A DNA stretch of 56,483 nucleotides, from positions 1 to 56,483 of the forward strand of contig JAHDXH010000005.1 of NCBI GenBank assembly GCA_023382875.1, in the 5' to 3' direction. How positions within the stretch are numbered: position 1 is the stretch's first letter; each line of letters begins with the position of its first letter. Under the pieces are notes generated by a model. That model was not told the DNA's origin, searched no databases, and was given only the letters and a program-made list of their open reading frames with translations. Made by a program: the position numbers and the translations under genes. Shown here piece after piece: positions 18,887 through 28,493 of this stretch. The DNA is from Patescibacteria group bacterium. Lineage in GTDB: Bacteria > Patescibacteriota > Microgenomatia > UBA1400 > PJMF01.

Positions 18887-19783
18887 ATGAAACTCATTTC
18901 CGGTACATCCAATCTTCCTTTAGCTCAAAAAATTGCCGACCAATTGGGCTCACCACTCCTTGATGTGGAAATCACTAAGTTTGCTAATGGTGAAAAAAGA
19001 GTTTGGGTCAAAGATAAAATTGCCGGCGAAAATGTTAGCTTGGTCCAATCTTTTAATAATCCTGTAGATGAAAATATTGTCGAAACTTTACTCATCATCG
19101 ATGCCCTAGAGCGCGCTGGAGCGCGCCACATCAACTTGATCATTCCTTGGATGGGTTATTCACTTCAGGATAAAGTCTTTAGAGAGGGTGAACCAATCGC
19201 CGCTAGAGTTATCGCTGACTTGCTTTCCAACTCACATGCCAAACGAGCGGTTTTACTCGACTTACACAACTCAAGTATTCCTGGATTTTTCTCGATTCCC
19301 ACTCAACACTTACTGGCTCTCAATCCTTTCGCCGAATACATCAGAGAAAATTTCAACCAAAATGAAACTATCATTGTCAGTCCTGACTTTGGTGGCTTGA
19401 AAAGAGCTCGCACCTTTGCCGAGCTACTAGGACTTGAGCTCGAAAATATCGACAAACATCGTGACCTTACGACCGGCAAAGTTACCCCCAAAGGCGTCAC
19501 TGGTGATGTCGAAGGCAAAATTTGTATTATCTACGATGATGTCATCAACACCGGCGGAACAGTGGTCGAAGTCGCCAAATTCCTCAAAGAAAAAGGTGCT
19601 AAAGAAGTGCACTTCTTAGTGACACACGGACTTTTTGCTGGCGATGGACTGATGAAAATGGAAGATCCAAGCATTGATAGTGTCGTCATCACCAACTCTA
19701 TTCATCACCTTAATCTGCCGCCAAAAATTAGAGTGATTGATGTGTCAAAATTATTGGCTGATTCAGTCAAAACTTGGGTCTAA
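18887..19783 (+). CDS. prs: ribose-phosphate pyrophosphokinase (PRPP synthase)
   Basis: Makes PRPP from ribose 5-phosphate and ATP, the co-substrate used by PyrE. The 298 residues contain TKFANGEKRVWV, the flexible-loop YSLQDKVFREGEPIAARV, a metal/ATP site VLLDLHNSS (usually DLHA), and the PRPP-binding IIYDDVINTGGTV. Slightly shorter than typical (about 310-320). TATAAT at 18875-18880 ends 6 nt before the ATG, giving it an independent leaderless promoter inside the operon. The DLHN variant and shortened loop suggest a divergent class, but the core is intact. Confidence 0.92.
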   Translation: MKLISGTSNLPLAQKIADQLGSPLLDVEITKFANGEKRVWVKDKIAGENVSLVQSFNNPVDENIVETLLIIDALERAGARHINLIIPWMGYSLQDKVFREGEPIAARVIADLLSNSHAKRAVLLDLHNSSIPGFFSIPTQHLLALNPFAEYIRENFNQNETIIVSPDFGGLKRARTFAELLGLELENIDKHRDLTTGKVTPKGVTGDVEGKICIIYDDVINTGGTVVEVAKFLKEKGAKEVHFLVTHGLFAGDGLMKMEDPSIDSVVITNSIHHLNLPPKIRVIDVSKLLADSVKTWV

Positions 19784-19807
19784 TTTTTTTAGCCAAAAAG
19801 CTCGTGT

Positions 19808-20051
19808 TATAATTTCGACAGAAATATTTTTTGATCGCCAAAAAAAATGTGATCAAAAGCCCTGGCTCCTAACCAAGGTTCGAAACTCTGTTTCGAAATA
19901 GATGAGGACAAGTCTCGACCCTAACTCATCCGGCTCTGACCGTCACCAGCAATGAAGCTTAGAAATTCTAAGAAACCAAGGTGGTACCGCGGGTCAACAA
20001 CTCGCCCTTGCACACTAAATTAATACATTAGTGGTTGAGGGCGAGTTTTTT
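19808..20051 (+). ncRNA. T-box riboswitch controlling proS (transcriptional)
   Basis: TATAAT at 19808-19813 starts a leader that ends in a terminator 23 nt before proS. The hallmark AAGGTGGTACCGCGG is at 19978-19992; its TGGT would pair with an ACCA tRNA end. CCAAGG can pair with CCCTTG (20005-20010) as antiterminator, excluding the terminator whose arms are CTCGCCCT (20001-20008) and AGGGCGAG (20038-20045) before six T. Stem III is CTTAGAA/TTCTAAG. A hairpin GATGAG/CTCATC containing the T-box-like GAGGACAAGT has proline codons CCC/CCT at 19919-19922 as specifier candidates; this Stem I is much shorter than usual. Senses uncharged tRNA-Pro. Confidence 0.9.
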
Positions 20052-20074: not shown

Positions 20075-21751
20075 ATGAAATACTCAAAACTTTTTGGCAA
20101 AACCTCATACGGCGACCAAAGCGGTTCAGGCATGATAAGCCACCAGCTATTAACTAAAGGCGGTTTTATTCGCGAGTCAGTTGCAGGACGTTACTTCTTT
20201 TTACCACTGGGGTGGAGGGTTCAAGAAAAAATTAAAGCTGTAATTAAAGATGAGATGGACAAAGCAGGGGCACAAGAAATGATTTCACCTGTTCTGCATC
20301 CTCTCGAACTGTGGAAAGAAACCAACCGCACCAACACGGCTGGTTTTGAGCTGATGCAAGTCACCGACCGTCGTGGTGGCGAATTTGCCCTTGGTGGTAC
20401 TGCAGAAGAAATGTTTGTCGATGTAGTTAGAAAATTCAATCTTTCTTACAAAGATTTACCTTTCAATATTTATCAATTCTCAACCAAATTTAGAGATGAA
20501 TTAAGAGCTCGAGGCGGCTTATTACGCGTCCGCGAATTTGTCATGAAGGATGCTTATTCTTTCCATACTGATGCTGAAGATTTCAAAAAAGAGTACGACA
20601 AAATGGCAGAGACCTATACCAAAATTTATCAACGCCTCGGATTGGAAACTCGCGTCGTCAAAGCTGATAACGGCTATATCGGCGGAGAATATTGTCATGA
20701 ATTTCAAGTTGAGCATCCTGAAGGAGAAGGCCGTTTCTTTGTTTCTGAAGATGGTTCTTATTGTGCACATGAAGATATTGCTGAATTTGCCAGAGATGAA
20801 AAAAACATTGGCGAAACTGAAGACGAATACCAGGTTGTCGATGCAGTTCGCGGTAAAACCATGAATGATGGCGTCGAACTTCATGGCAAACCTTTATGGC
20901 AACAAATAAAAAATGTCATGTTCGCTGACGAAAAAGGTAATTTGATTTTGGCTGTTATTAGAGGTGACTTAGATGTCAATGAAACCAAACTCAAAAATTT
21001 ATTAAAAGCTGCTCAACTGAGAGCTGCCGAAGACAATGAAATTTATGCCCTGGGCAGTGAGCCAGGCTTCATTTCTCCCGTAGGCATGAAGGGTAAAGTA
21101 AAAATTGTGGGTGATATTTCACTAAGAACAATCAAAAATGGCTACACCGGTGCCAATCAAAAAAATAAGGATGCCCTCAATGTCAACCTTGGTCGTGACT
21201 TCGATTTAGATTTGGAAGGTGATATTGCTATGGCAGAAGCCGGCTTTTTGAGCCCTGATGGTCAGAGTAAATTAGAGGAAAAAAGAGGCATTGAAGTAGG
21301 TAACATTTTCCAACTTGGATACCATTACTCCAATCTGATGAAGGATGCCAACTTTGTTGATAAAGATGGCCAGAAAAAACCCTACTACATGGGTTGTTAT
21401 GGCATTGGCCTTGGTCGCACTTTGGCCACAATAGTTGAGAAGCATCACGATGAAAAAGGCATTATTTGGCCAGAAAACATTGCTCCATATCAAGTTCATT
21501 TGATTGATATTAATGAAAATGAAAAAGCTCAAATGATTTATCAAACATTGATTGAGGCTGGCGTTGAAGTTTTGTGGGATGACCGCAGTGAAAATGCGGG
21601 TCGCAAATTCAACGACTCTGATTTACTAGGACTACCCATCAGATTAGTGGTATCTAAAAAAACTGGTGATCAAATTGAGTGGAAAAAACGCAGCGAAACT
21701 CAAGCCGAATTAATCAACCTTGACCAAGTGTTGGAAAGACTGAAACAATAA
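20075..21751 (+). CDS. proS: prolyl-tRNA synthetase (bacterial type)
   Basis: Charges tRNA-Pro. The 558-residue class II synthetase shows motif 2 (FRDELRARGGLLRVREFVMKD), the editing/insertion domain at about 225-385, motif 3 (GCYGIGLGRTLATIVE) and a C-terminal anticodon-binding domain with NAGRKFNDSDLLGLPIRLVV. Length and the insertion place it with bacterial-type ProRS. Expression is governed by the T-box directly upstream, so it should rise when charged tRNA-Pro runs low. It is followed by a small DUF4258 gene, 12 nt after its stop. Confidence 0.95.
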   Translation: MKYSKLFGKTSYGDQSGSGMISHQLLTKGGFIRESVAGRYFFLPLGWRVQEKIKAVIKDEMDKAGAQEMISPVLHPLELWKETNRTNTAGFELMQVTDRRGGEFALGGTAEEMFVDVVRKFNLSYKDLPFNIYQFSTKFRDELRARGGLLRVREFVMKDAYSFHTDAEDFKKEYDKMAETYTKIYQRLGLETRVVKADNGYIGGEYCHEFQVEHPEGEGRFFVSEDGSYCAHEDIAEFARDEKNIGETEDEYQVVDAVRGKTMNDGVELHGKPLWQQIKNVMFADEKGNLILAVIRGDLDVNETKLKNLLKAAQLRAAEDNEIYALGSEPGFISPVGMKGKVKIVGDISLRTIKNGYTGANQKNKDALNVNLGRDFDLDLEGDIAMAEAGFLSPDGQSKLEEKRGIEVGNIFQLGYHYSNLMKDANFVDKDGQKKPYYMGCYGIGLGRTLATIVEKHHDEKGIIWPENIAPYQVHLIDINENEKAQMIYQTLIEAGVEVLWDDRSENAGRKFNDSDLLGLPIRLVVSKKTGDQIEWKKRSETQAELINLDQVLERLKQ

Positions 21752-23291: not shown

Positions 23292-23661
23292 AACTAATTG
23301 CCTTTTTTGCAAAATTATCGCTAAACAAATCCCCAGCACTATTCGCTATGAAGATGAAAATTGGCTAGCCTTCGACGACATCCATAAATCAGCTCCAGAA
23401 CATGTTTTACTTATCCCAAAAATCCACTACAAATCTCTAGAAGAGGTAGAAGCTAACGACAGCCAATTTCATAACGATCTACTTAAGACAGCTAGAAAAA
23501 TCGCTAGCCAAATTGGTATTAACGATAACTATAAGCTTTTTATGAATGTGGGCGACAAAGTTCAAATGATCCACCACCTTCACCTCCACCTCATGGGCGG
23601 TTGGTCAAAAGACATTACTACCGAGGAATTGGACAATCAATCTAATCAGGTTTTAAATTAA
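23284..23661 (+). CDS. hinT: HIT-family nucleotide hydrolase (HinT-like)
   Basis: Histidine triad protein (125 aa). It shows the N-terminal zinc-like pair CLFCKIIAKQIPS, the ligand strand APEHVLLIPKIHY, and the catalytic triad HLHLHLMGG near residue 100. HinT enzymes cleave adenosine phosphoramidates, including lysyl-AMP formed by LysRS; relatives cleave Ap4A. It overlaps the DHH-like gene by 8 nt (same operon) and is convergent with, and overlaps by 4 nt, the lysS-HD gene. Links to LysRS-derived nucleotides are inferred from family knowledge and neighbourhood. Confidence 0.92.
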   Translation: MNETNCLFCKIIAKQIPSTIRYEDENWLAFDDIHKSAPEHVLLIPKIHYKSLEEVEANDSQFHNDLLKTARKIASQIGINDNYKLFMNVGDKVQMIHHLHLHLMGGWSKDITTEELDNQSNQVLN

Positions 23662-25721
23662 TTTTTAAAAACTGAAATCAAAAAGCCAATATGCTCATCA
23701 GCGGTTTTACCGATTAAGTCCAAGCCTTCATTAATATCGTCTCTTGAAACGTTGGCGGCAAAAGATTTGTCTTTGAGTTTTTTCTTGACTGATTTTGCTT
23801 CCATATCAACGAAGCCATTTGGTCTCATCAAAGAAATTGCATGCATCAAACCAGATAGTTCATCGCAAGCAAATAAATATCTTTCAATCAAAGTTTCTGG
23901 ATTTTTGCCAGTTCTACCTGGCGCATGAGCTTTAATCGCTTCAATCAAAACACTTGGATAATCGGTCAAAATTTCGGTGACAGCTTTATTAGGATGTTCA
24001 TCTGGGAACATTTCCCAGTCCAAATCATGAAGTAAACCAGCTTGATACCAAAGTTCACTATCTTCACCAAGTTCTTGGGCGTAAGCCTCCATCGCTCTTG
24101 CTACCATTTGGCAATGGTGACGCAATGCTTCACTTTTAATATATTCATCCAATAAAGCTTCAGCTTGAGAGCGAGGCGGTAATCCAGCAGTTGCCTCAGC
24201 TTTTGGCTTGGAAGCTGGAGCTGACTTAACAGCCGGCTCTGTGGATTTTTGAGCTTGGCCATTTTCCTGAGAAACTGGTCTGATTGGTCTTAGAGTAGGG
24301 AAGGCAATGACTTCTTTAATACTCCAAGTATTAGTTAAGAACATCACCAAACGATCAATACCCATACCAATACCTCCGAGTGGTGGCATACCATATTCCA
24401 TTGCTTCCAAATAATCTTCATCCATTGGATGAGCTTCGGCATCGCCGGCTCTCATTCTTTTTTGTTCACCAGCAAAAATATTTCTTTGGTCGATCGAATC
24501 GGTAATCTCACTCCAGCCATCAGCTAATTCTTTACCACCAATGTAACACTCAAATCTTTCAGCAAGCTTATCATTGTGACGATGTTTTTTAGCCAAAGGA
24601 CTAACGTCACGTGGATAATCTCTAACCCAAGTTGGAGCAATTAAATGACCCGTCACTAATTTATCAAACAAACTAAACATTGCTTTGCCTCTGGTATATT
24701 CACCAATCAATTCAATGTTGTTTTGGCGCATTTTGGTTTGAATCTGCTCATCACTCATCTCCTCAAACTGGATGTCTGCATATTTGGCCAGAGCCTCAAC
24801 CATGGTAATTCTTTCCCATTTTCCACCCAGATCAACTTCTTGGTCGTAAACTTGAAGCATAGTGGAGCCATTAAGTTTTTGCACCAAGTGTTTGATCAAA
24901 GCTTCTGCGGTATTCATCATGACGTCGTAGTCAGCATAGGCGTGATACCACTCAATCATAGTGAATTCTGGTTGGTGAGTCTGGTCAATGCCTTCATTTC
25001 TAAAGTTGCGAGCAATTTCAAAAATTCTTTCATAACCACCAACAACCAATCTTTTCAAATAAAGTTCAGGAGCTAAACGCAAATAAAAATCAGTATCCAA
25101 AGCATTCATGTGGGTAGTGAATGGAGTAGCATTAGTACCACCATAAAGTGGTTGCAAAATTGGAGTTTCGACTTCGATAAAGTTGTATTCGTCTTGCAGG
25201 AAGCGACGCACTTCGCGAAGAATCAGCCAACGAGCGTCGAGAATTTTTTTGGTTTGAGGATTAACCAATAAATCTAAATATCTTTTTCTAAAACGAACTT
25301 CTTTGTCATCAGAGGCATTCCAAGCTGATGGCAGTGGTCTCAAGGCTTTGCCGTGGAATTCAAAATCAGAGGCAGTAATTGTAATTTCACCGGTGCGAGT
25401 TGGTGCAACTTCGCCTTCAACACCCAAAAAGTCACCAGCATCAATAAAGGTCAGTTGAGCAAATTTTTCACCCAAGTTTTTGGCATGAAGTAAAACCTGA
25501 ATTTTGCCAGTAGTGTCCTGTAAATCTAAAAAGACAACCTGGCCATGAGCTCTAATACTCATGATACGACCAGCAGTTTTAACACTTTTGCCATCGCTAG
25601 CCAAAGCTTCAGCAACAGAGTGAGTTTTGTTGTAAAAATATGGATGAATAGTTACACCCATATTTTCTAAGCTTTGTCTTTTTTCTTTTTTCGCCTGAAT
25701 TGTGTCGTCAATTCTTGACAT
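23658..25721 (-). CDS. lysS: lysyl-tRNA synthetase (class II) fused to an HD-family hydrolase domain
   Basis: Residues 1-490 are a complete class II LysRS: OB-fold anticodon-binding domain (VKTAGRIMSIRAHGQVVFLD), motif 1 region, motif 2 (RIFEIARNFRNEGIDQTHQPEF) and motif 3 (GIGMGIDRLVMFLTN). A Pro/Ala/Lys-rich linker (about 492-528) leads to an HD domain (about 529-687): HCQMVARAM, GLLHDLDWEMFPDEHP, KAHAPGRTG, LFACDELSGLMHA, RPNGFVDMEAKSVKKKLKDK. The HD part resembles stand-alone predicted HD hydrolases (COG2316 type). Length 687 versus about 500 for normal LysRS. No frameshift separates the parts. The HD substrate is unknown. Confidence 0.92.
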   Translation of the reverse strand: MSRIDDTIQAKKEKRQSLENMGVTIHPYFYNKTHSVAEALASDGKSVKTAGRIMSIRAHGQVVFLDLQDTTGKIQVLLHAKNLGEKFAQLTFIDAGDFLGVEGEVAPTRTGEITITASDFEFHGKALRPLPSAWNASDDKEVRFRKRYLDLLVNPQTKKILDARWLILREVRRFLQDEYNFIEVETPILQPLYGGTNATPFTTHMNALDTDFYLRLAPELYLKRLVVGGYERIFEIARNFRNEGIDQTHQPEFTMIEWYHAYADYDVMMNTAEALIKHLVQKLNGSTMLQVYDQEVDLGGKWERITMVEALAKYADIQFEEMSDEQIQTKMRQNNIELIGEYTRGKAMFSLFDKLVTGHLIAPTWVRDYPRDVSPLAKKHRHNDKLAERFECYIGGKELADGWSEITDSIDQRNIFAGEQKRMRAGDAEAHPMDEDYLEAMEYGMPPLGGIGMGIDRLVMFLTNTWSIKEVIAFPTLRPIRPVSQENGQAQKSTEPAVKSAPASKPKAEATAGLPPRSQAEALLDEYIKSEALRHHCQMVARAMEAYAQELGEDSELWYQAGLLHDLDWEMFPDEHPNKAVTEILTDYPSVLIEAIKAHAPGRTGKNPETLIERYLFACDELSGLMHAISLMRPNGFVDMEAKSVKKKLKDKSFAANVSRDDINEGLDLIGKTADEHIGFLISVFKN

Positions 25722-26452: not shown

Positions 26453-28213
26453 CTACTTAACTGTAACTGACTTGGCTAAATTTCTTGGTTTATCAGGATC
26501 TAAATTTTTAGCTTTAGCCAAATATAAACCCAGCAATTGTACCAGAACCGCTTCCAGTAAAACGTTAGCATTTGGAACTGATTCAAAAGATAACCATTCA
26601 TCAAAAACCTGATGAAAATAGGGTGAAATACCAAGTATTTTACCCCCACGTGCTTTAATTTCTTCAGCATTGGCCAGAATATTAGCATCTTCCTCATCTC
26701 CACCCACAATCACAATTGTCCAAGTTCCTGGTTCAATTAAGGCAATGACTCCGTGTTTGAGCTCACCACCAGCAAAAGCTTCAAAGTGCAAATAAGCAGC
26801 TTCTTTTGCTTTGAGAGCGCACTCCAGAGCAATGGGGTAGTGAACACCACGTCCCAAAACAAAAACATGATTTTGTATACTCAAAAGATTTGCTATTTTT
26901 GCAACTTTGTCTAAATTTTCCGCTAAAAATAGCTTTCTAATATTTTTACTAGCCAAAGCCAAATTCTTAGTGGTTGCTTTGAGTTGTTTATTTAAACTAG
27001 AACAAATCAACAGCCAAGCGGTTATTTTTGCCACAAATGCTTTGGTAGAAACCACGCTGATTTCGGGACCAGCTTGCAGATGAAAACTTAAAGTTGATTC
27101 TCGGTCCAATGTCGAACTAATCCGATTAACTAATGCCAACAACTTTCTTTTCTTTTTCTTCAAAAATCCAACCTGCTCAATTAAATCAATAGTTTCACCA
27201 CTTTGTGACAAAAAAATTGGCAAAGTACTTTTTTTTATATTTTTCAAAAACAAACTCGCTTCACCCCCAGAGTAGGCTGTAGCAATGCGACTAACTTGGG
27301 CCAATAAATATTGACCAATCAAAGCTGCATAATAAGCTGTGCCGCAGCCGATCAAAAAAAACTCATCGTGTTGGTTTAGCAAAGATAAAAGCGATTTTTC
27401 TTGATTTTTGTAAGTGGAAATTAGCTTTTCAATGACAGTTGGAATTTCATTGATTTCCTTTTCAATAAAAAAATCGAAACCATCTTTTTGTAAATCTGAT
27501 ACTTCAAGATCTAGCATCTGCCAAGTAATTTTTTTACTTTTTTTAGTCTTAGCCGAGAAAAGCCGATCGCCAATGAAAACTTCACCTTCCTTAATGAAAT
27601 AAACTTTTTTTGTGTATGGAAGAAGGGCAATAGCATCACTGGCAAAATAATACCCGCCATCATTTTGACTAAAAACTAGTGGTGAACCATGACGATATGC
27701 CAAAACATTGTTGTTTTTCTTATCCAAAACAACAAATGCATTCAGTCCTTTAACTTTGGCCAGTGATTTGAAAAATGCCTCCTCAACTGACAGACTTTGG
27801 GCATTAAATGCCAAAAGATGAGCAAAGACTTCTGAGTCTGTCTCTGATTTGAAAACTAAATTAGGAATTTGTTTTTGTAACTCATCTTTAAGCTGTAAGT
27901 AGTTTTCAATAATTCCATTGTGAACAATTGCAAACCGACCATCAAAACTAAGATGCGGGTGAGCATTCTGCTTTGTCACGCCACCATGTGTAGCCCAACG
28001 CGTATGACCAATGCCGGCCAAAGAATCTGAGGTATTGGCAAGAACCGTACTGCCAATTTTTCCCGTGTCTTTTTCAACCAAAATTGTGTCATTTTCTATT
28101 GTCGCCACACCCCATGAATCATAACCACGATATTCAAGAGTTTTAAGTTCAGTCAATATTTCCCTATTTATAGCTCTTTTTTCTTTTACCACCATCCCAA
28201 AAATTCCACACAT
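26453..28213 (-). CDS. glmS: glutamine-fructose-6-phosphate aminotransferase (isomerizing)
   Basis: Makes glucosamine 6-phosphate for peptidoglycan precursors. The start is fixed by MCGIFGMV at 28213, where Cys2 is the amidotransferase nucleophile; the 36 codons in front of it belong to the structured leader. The glutaminase domain (GYDSWGVA, HTRWATHGGVT, NAHPH, HNGIIENYLQL) is followed by two SIS domains (FFLIGCGTAYYAALIGQYL, LSQSGETIDLIEQVG, FVLGRGVHYPIALECALK, EAFAGGELKHGVIALI) and ends in DKPRNLAKSVTVK. 586 residues, near family length. Preceded by a glmS-ribozyme-like RNA, so likely repressed by its product. Confidence 0.95.
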   Translation of the reverse strand: MCGIFGMVVKEKRAINREILTELKTLEYRGYDSWGVATIENDTILVEKDTGKIGSTVLANTSDSLAGIGHTRWATHGGVTKQNAHPHLSFDGRFAIVHNGIIENYLQLKDELQKQIPNLVFKSETDSEVFAHLLAFNAQSLSVEEAFFKSLAKVKGLNAFVVLDKKNNNVLAYRHGSPLVFSQNDGGYYFASDAIALLPYTKKVYFIKEGEVFIGDRLFSAKTKKSKKITWQMLDLEVSDLQKDGFDFFIEKEINEIPTVIEKLISTYKNQEKSLLSLLNQHDEFFLIGCGTAYYAALIGQYLLAQVSRIATAYSGGEASLFLKNIKKSTLPIFLSQSGETIDLIEQVGFLKKKKRKLLALVNRISSTLDRESTLSFHLQAGPEISVVSTKAFVAKITAWLLICSSLNKQLKATTKNLALASKNIRKLFLAENLDKVAKIANLLSIQNHVFVLGRGVHYPIALECALKAKEAAYLHFEAFAGGELKHGVIALIEPGTWTIVIVGGDEEDANILANAEEIKARGGKILGISPYFHQVFDEWLSFESVPNANVLLEAVLVQLLGLYLAKAKNLDPDKPRNLAKSVTVK

Positions 28214-28253
28214 AAATGTGCCTTTCACAAAAGACCAAAAGGGAGAGTTGGTT

Positions 28254-28427
28254 GTGCAAAATGCCTCTTTATTTTTGATCTCACGATCAACTTTTGAAGA
28301 CAAATTTAACGATGACACCACACCGAAGGGTTTCCGCAGATACTCAGCTCAAATTAGTTGAGCTGGTCCGATTGTGCTTCAAAGCACCCCTTTCCTCGTT
28401 TCCTAGTTTTCATCCTAGGCCACACGC
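28254..28427 (-). ncRNA. glmS self-cleaving ribozyme (divergent)
   Basis: Read on the minus strand from 28427, the leader matches the glmS ribozyme order: GCGTGTGG at the cleavage end (consensus GCGCCxGG), stem CCTAG/CTAGG (P1), AACGAGG (consensus GACGAGG), AAGGG pairing with CCCTT (P2), AATCGGAC and ATCTGCGG in the core (consensus AUCGA, AUCGGCGG), hairpin CGGTG/CATCG followed by TTA (P3), then CTTCAAA, a GTGA-capped hairpin and AAAGAG (P4/P4.1). CGTG:TGCG keeps the core pseudoknot with wobble pairs. Two extra hairpins (GTGCTT/AAGCAC and CAGCTCAA/TTGAGCTG) are inserted. It ends about 40 nt before the glmS ATG. Confidence 0.85.
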
Positions 28428-28493
28428 CATAATAATAATGAACTCATCTGCCATTTTGGCAAATAAATAACAATCACATCATAACACGGCGGA

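Follow-up and report, generated by a model that had tools for sequence, protein, structure and literature searches.

The proS Leader and Its Gene

The leader of the proline--tRNA ligase gene (proS) in the window (the whole 56,483-nt stretch of DNA analyzed here, from a very small, uncultured Patescibacteria group bacterium) raises the question of whether so compact an RNA is a T-box riboswitch and, if it is, which of its hairpins displays the proline codon. A preliminary description of the sequence had proposed a terminating proline T-box with a very short Stem I, for which it took the hairpin GATGAG...CTCATC, and had placed the specifier at CCC/CCT (19919–19922). Our analyses bore out the core, antiterminator, terminator and hairpins of that description, but not its specifier hairpin and codon.

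A gene ending at 19783 precedes the leader, and the proS start codon follows it at 20075. The assignment to proline agrees with the downstream gene, which NCBIfam identifies as a proline--tRNA ligase. A consensus promoter scan found no promoter upstream of the leader; a candidate extended -10 element is listed in Table 1. The source genome (1.0 Mb in 29 contigs) has tRNA-Pro genes with the anticodons GGG, UGG and CGG. Elsewhere in the window, on the minus strand, we noted a glmS ribozyme/riboswitch (28249–28439, 51.9 bits, above its Rfam cut-off) near a 622-aa reading frame (26453–28321), and a 687-aa frame (23658–25721) for a lysine-type class II tRNA synthetase with Pfam tRNA-synt_2 and OB fold matches and a C-terminal HD domain.

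A structure-aware search, which the preliminary description had suggested as a check, was run with Infernal and matched the Rfam T-box family RF00230 at 19822–20012 (E 2e-8, 43.3 bits). The curated cut-off of this family is 93 bits, more than twice the score of the proS leader, and the leader is therefore missed by a default Rfam scan. Its folding z-score was -4.5, and it was more stable than all 200 shuffled sequences.

The T-box core ACCAAGGTGGTACCGCGG (19975–19992) holds the bulge UGGUACC inside an antiterminator in which CAAGG (19977–19981) pairs with CCUUG (20006–20010), with additional GCGGG/CUCGC pairing. The terminator hairpin (19999–20047, -24 kcal/mol, followed by the T run) shares a strand with the antiterminator, so that the two structures exclude each other. 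For comparison we assembled six proS leaders from five genera: that of the window, L039 from the same genus, which precedes an archaeal-type ProS, and L053, L062, L102 and L169 from four others. Where related proS genes come from a named genome, it is a Patescibacteria MAG that bears the label Pacebacteria, Collierbacteria or another. In all six leaders the bulge is UGGU, which is complementary to the 3' end of tRNA-Pro together with its discriminator, A, and a terminator is present; all six also display a proline codon, CCU or CCC, in the 5' domain. Judged by its sequence and predicted structures, the proS leader is a genuine, transcription-terminating T-box and has every structural T-box feature that could be tested.

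Table 1. Features of the proS leader and gene (positions in the window).
Feature	Position	Strand	Basis
Extended -10 promoter element, TGT-TATAAT	19805–19813	+	Inferred by sequence; without a good -35
H0, 5' hairpin flush against Stem I, TTTTGATC/GATCAAAA	19829–19858	+	Folding; 11 bp if extended to 19828–19859
Stem I, specifier hairpin CCCUGG-CUCCUAA-CCAAGG, 19 nt, one C.A mismatch	19860–19878	+	Conserved loop, covarying stem
Specifier codon CCU (Pro), followed by A	19868–19870	+	Comparison of six proS leaders
H1, linker hairpin from Stem I to Stem II, TTCGAAAC-TCT-GTTTCGAA	19879–19897	+	Folding
Stem II, GATGAG-GGA..CUAA internal loop-CTCATC	19901–19930	+	Covariation; position relative to IIA/B
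IIA/B element, CGG-CUCUGA-CCG	19931–19956	+	Infernal and folding
Stem III, CUUAGA-AAU-UCUAAG	19958–19972	+	Infernal and folding
Antiterminator with T-box bulge UGGUACC (19982–19988)	19977–20010	+	Infernal and folding
Intrinsic terminator, 12-bp stem and T run	19999–20051	+	Mutually exclusive with antiterminator
proS, proline--tRNA ligase, 558 aa	20075–21751	+	NCBIfam NF006625 match

The Specifier Hairpin

Comparison of the leaders indicates that the specifier hairpin is the small stem-loop at 19860–19878, between the "two extra hairpins" of the preliminary description, both of which are present (H0 and H1 in Table 1). We looked to this position because five of the other six T-boxes of the genome show their cognate codon in a short hairpin ahead of Stem II, and we regard the assignment as settled because the five further proS leaders keep the proline loop on covarying stems. 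The codon CCU lies within a 7-nt apical loop, CU-CCU-AA. This loop is CUCCUAA in five of the six leaders, including that of the window, and CACCCAA in L062, and the stem sequences are unrelated. CCU pairs with the GGG anticodon through wobble only.

Because MAFFT misaligned whole leaders, each hairpin was excised manually and aligned on its own. In this small sample of six sequences, 92.9% of the cells of the Stem I alignment were paired, and six of its seven pairs had changed on both sides. Shuffle and slide controls were run because hand-cut hairpin alignments favor pairing. None of 500 shuffles reached as high a pairing or covariation score, and the pairing collapsed once the partner strand was slid.

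Other specifier hairpins were considered. H0 contains CCA, a codon that is not conserved in the other proS leaders, and it was ruled out. Infernal forces a canonical long Stem I from the upstream hairpins, but this had low posteriors and lacked S-turn or platform motifs. Such a fold was what the preliminary description had named as speaking against it; it did not materialize, yet an upstream hairpin that the description had not listed is Stem I. "Very short" was thus apt, as the true Stem I is even smaller than the hairpin for which the term was used.

Stem II and the Flanking Hairpins

The GATGAG...CTCATC hairpin exists, and is conserved and covarying across the proS leaders. We assign it as Stem II because it lies directly 5' of the CGG...CCG hairpin of the IIA/B element and because a proline codon is absent from its loop in all five other leaders (UACUAA, AACUAA, UACUAA, UGCUAA and UGCUAA). 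The only common loop element is GGA...CUAA, an internal loop in the place where an S-turn, GAA/AGUA, would be. The IIA/B element may form a weak pseudoknot with a downstream CAG (by eye).

Five of the six proS leaders have a hairpin that ends flush at the 5' side of Stem I. In the window it is 11 bp, which was matched in none of 1000 mononucleotide shuffles; those of the other leaders are 5–7 bp, with individual shuffle values between 0.007 and 0.12. On the 3' side of Stem I there is usually a weaker hairpin. At the base of Stem I, the canonical K-turn-like motif GNUGA...GA was absent by sequence from all six leaders, although a non-canonical K-turn may be present.

T-Boxes in the Genome, Order and Phylum

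The source genome has six more T-boxes below the threshold, upstream of argG, argH, the gene of a 396-aa protein, serS, ileS and glyS. In five of the six, the cognate codon is in a small apical loop (GU-CGC-GA, GU-CGC-G, AGU-CGC-GC, UU-AGC-AC and CU-AUC-AA, representing Arg three times, Ser and Ile, with Arg assumed for the 396-aa protein gene); in the sixth, that of glyS, GGC lies in a hairpin that is less clearly defined. The 396-aa protein, which follows a compact T-box with loop codon CGC (L004, G000 contig C1, 1501–2968), had no NCBIfam or Pfam match. Compact T-boxes with the cognate codon in the loop also occur in relatives for Gly, Trp, Asn and Asp, the glyS leaders having GGC in 8–9-nt loops and the trpS loops UGG. 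Outside the class, 6-nt loops were found with GAC in L182 and AUC in L184 (by eye, aspS and ileS leaders).

To quantify this pattern, codons were compared with permuted labels. In a loose test, 32 of 39 compact leaders had the cognate codon, with a purine directly after it, in some hairpin loop, versus 12.0 with permuted labels (maximum 21 in 2000 permutations), a count that includes some matches in other hairpins. A strict test, which required a 7-nt loop with the codon at positions 3–5, the peak offset for the cognate codon, is cleaner and gave 16 leaders versus 5.3 (maximum 13 in 5000). The T-box bulge is UGGA in all 14 glyS leaders, and the discriminator of tRNA-Gly is U. For Pro, Gly and Thr, position 4 of UGGN agrees with the discriminators of the tRNAs that this genome encodes; the ileS T-box of the source genome does not fit.

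In the order, the 700 nt ahead of most other proS genes of bacterial type held no T-box-like core, and the occurrence of the proS T-box is therefore patchy. When 374 genomes of the class were scanned with a pattern for the exact proS arrangement, only the window and G019 matched; the pattern was so strict that it missed L053, L062 and L169. The leaders L039 and L053 on the one hand, and those of the window, L062 and L102 on the other, are alike but precede two types of ProS (proS_fam_I and proS_fam_II), so that a swap between leader and gene type must have occurred in the past. Several other arrangements were observed. L036 (G069 contig C10) is a compact T-box with the loop GU-CCC-CA before a short gene resembling, by eye, CsaA or the MetG C-terminal tRNA-binding protein. 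L043/L100 (G061 contig C18) has the T-box loop UUUCCCG, ambiguous in its codon register, ~550 nt before proS, with a small frame between, and L091 (candidate division CPR3) has a T-box-like core ~130 nt upstream of proS in a different leader. Canonical long-Stem-I T-boxes, e.g., of alaS (L015, L029), coexist in the order; ten further leaders of relatives (L010–L014, L016–L018, L020 and L022) have a long canonical Stem I with GAAUUACC-like specifier regions and unnamed proteins downstream.

RF00230 matches were found in 51 of 89 relatives, above the curated cut-off in only 10, and across the phylum in 29 of 97 genomes, above it in only three. These few matches above the cut-off suggest that the Rfam threshold largely misses amino-acid regulation in Patescibacteria. 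In the part of the literature that was searched, we found no description of T-boxes in Patescibacteria or candidate phyla. On balance, we lean toward the view that Patescibacteria possess a large, largely unannotated group of terminating apical-loop T-boxes for many amino acids, with a K-turn-free proS subtype in which the flush and linker hairpins position Stem II instead.

Proposed Mechanism and Alternative Explanations

We consider it highly probable that the proS leader is a T-box riboswitch that has a minimal Stem I and acts by transcription termination, with uncharged tRNA-Pro leading to readthrough; uncharged proline tRNA is most likely what it reads. The nascent leader would fold H0, next the CCU specifier hairpin, followed by H1, Stem II and IIA/B. 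tRNA-Pro would pair through its anticodon with CCU in the Stem I loop; the analogy to Class III T-boxes (PMC10482949, PMC7583486) suggests that the anticodon would be held between this codon and Stem II, whose conserved internal loop may brace the codon–anticodon helix and so substitute for the absent distal platform. We infer that the flush hairpins take the place of a K-turn in allowing Stem II to dock. An uncharged tRNA would pair through its ACCA end with the UGGU of the bulge and stabilize the antiterminator, which would hold the strand needed by the terminator, and proS would be transcribed. Charged tRNA would be unable to pair with UGGU, and transcription would stop at ~20050. The C.A mismatch in the window's Stem I, the sub-cut-off score, the weak pseudoknot, the wobble between CCU and the GGG anticodon and the lack of a visible K-turn count against this mechanism.

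Some of these same points would be expected if the leader were a decayed T-box that no longer responds to tRNA and whose terminator sets a constant low level of expression. The mismatch, the weak IIA/B pseudoknot and the patchy occurrence within the order all fit such decay, but the leader retains an intact codon loop, UGGU bulge, antiterminator and terminator, and the same elements are conserved in the same-genus leader L039 before a different ProS type, which makes decay very improbable. We also regard as very improbable that 19901–19930 is Stem I, as in the preliminary description. Its loop, GACAAGU...GA-CCC-U, does resemble an S-turn plus a proline codon; against this, that codon is peculiar to the window among the six leaders, the hairpin occupies the Stem II position adjoining IIA/B, and a conserved, covarying proline-codon hairpin lies upstream of it.

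Least probable of all is that control is mainly translational, with the 3' hairpin as a sequestrator, even though a short Stem I with an apical loop is characteristic of T-boxes that act on translation (PMC7583486, PMC10482949). The strength of the hairpin, the T run directly after it and its ending before the proS start codon all speak for a terminator, as does the presence of terminators downstream in 35 of 40 related leaders. A terminating T-box with a minimal Stem I remains our preferred reading; its compact design is here below the standard RNA-family cut-off and has been described mostly in translational actinobacterial switches.

Comparison with Known T-Box Classes

Class I T-boxes have a long Stem I with an internal specifier loop and a distal double T-loop platform; short-Stem-I T-boxes are said to need a basal K-turn that connects Stem I to Stem II. 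With Class I (the Bacillus tyrS type and proBA/proI), the proS leader shares the transcription-termination mode, Stem II, Stem III and antiterminator, and its codon CCU also specifies proline in the proBA and proI T-boxes of Bacillus (PMC3858371). It differs in having no long Stem I, internal specifier loop or double T-loop platform; the preliminary description had correctly noted that a platform for the tRNA elbow was missing.

That description had also pointed to the short-Stem-I T-boxes of Actinobacteria, and the short Stem I with its apical-loop codon supports the likeness. As in the Class III ileS T-boxes of Nocardia farcinica and Mycobacterium (PMC10482949, PMC7583486), Stem I is short and without an elbow platform, the apical loop holds the specifier with an A after it, Stem II and IIA/B are present, and the T-box bulge is identical. 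By this analogy, the proS leader probably works like a Class III T-box. However, it has a terminator rather than a sequestrator, a 7-nt loop in all six leaders rather than a pentanucleotide or hexanucleotide (PMC10482949), no K-turn-like base, and a Stem II internal loop of GGA/CUAA rather than GAA/AGUA; it also reads a proline codon and its hosts are Patescibacteria. We have not filed it as Class III because the K-turn, the 5–6-nt loop and translational control were each tested and did not apply.

A further comparison is with the other compact T-boxes of the order (argG, argH, serS, ileS, glyS, trpS and aspS). Many of those keep a K-turn-like base (GCGNUGA...GAGC), in contrast to the proS leader, and the glyS loops differ in being 8–9 nt long, but in all of them, as in the proS leader, a small apical loop carries the cognate codon, and most have a terminator.
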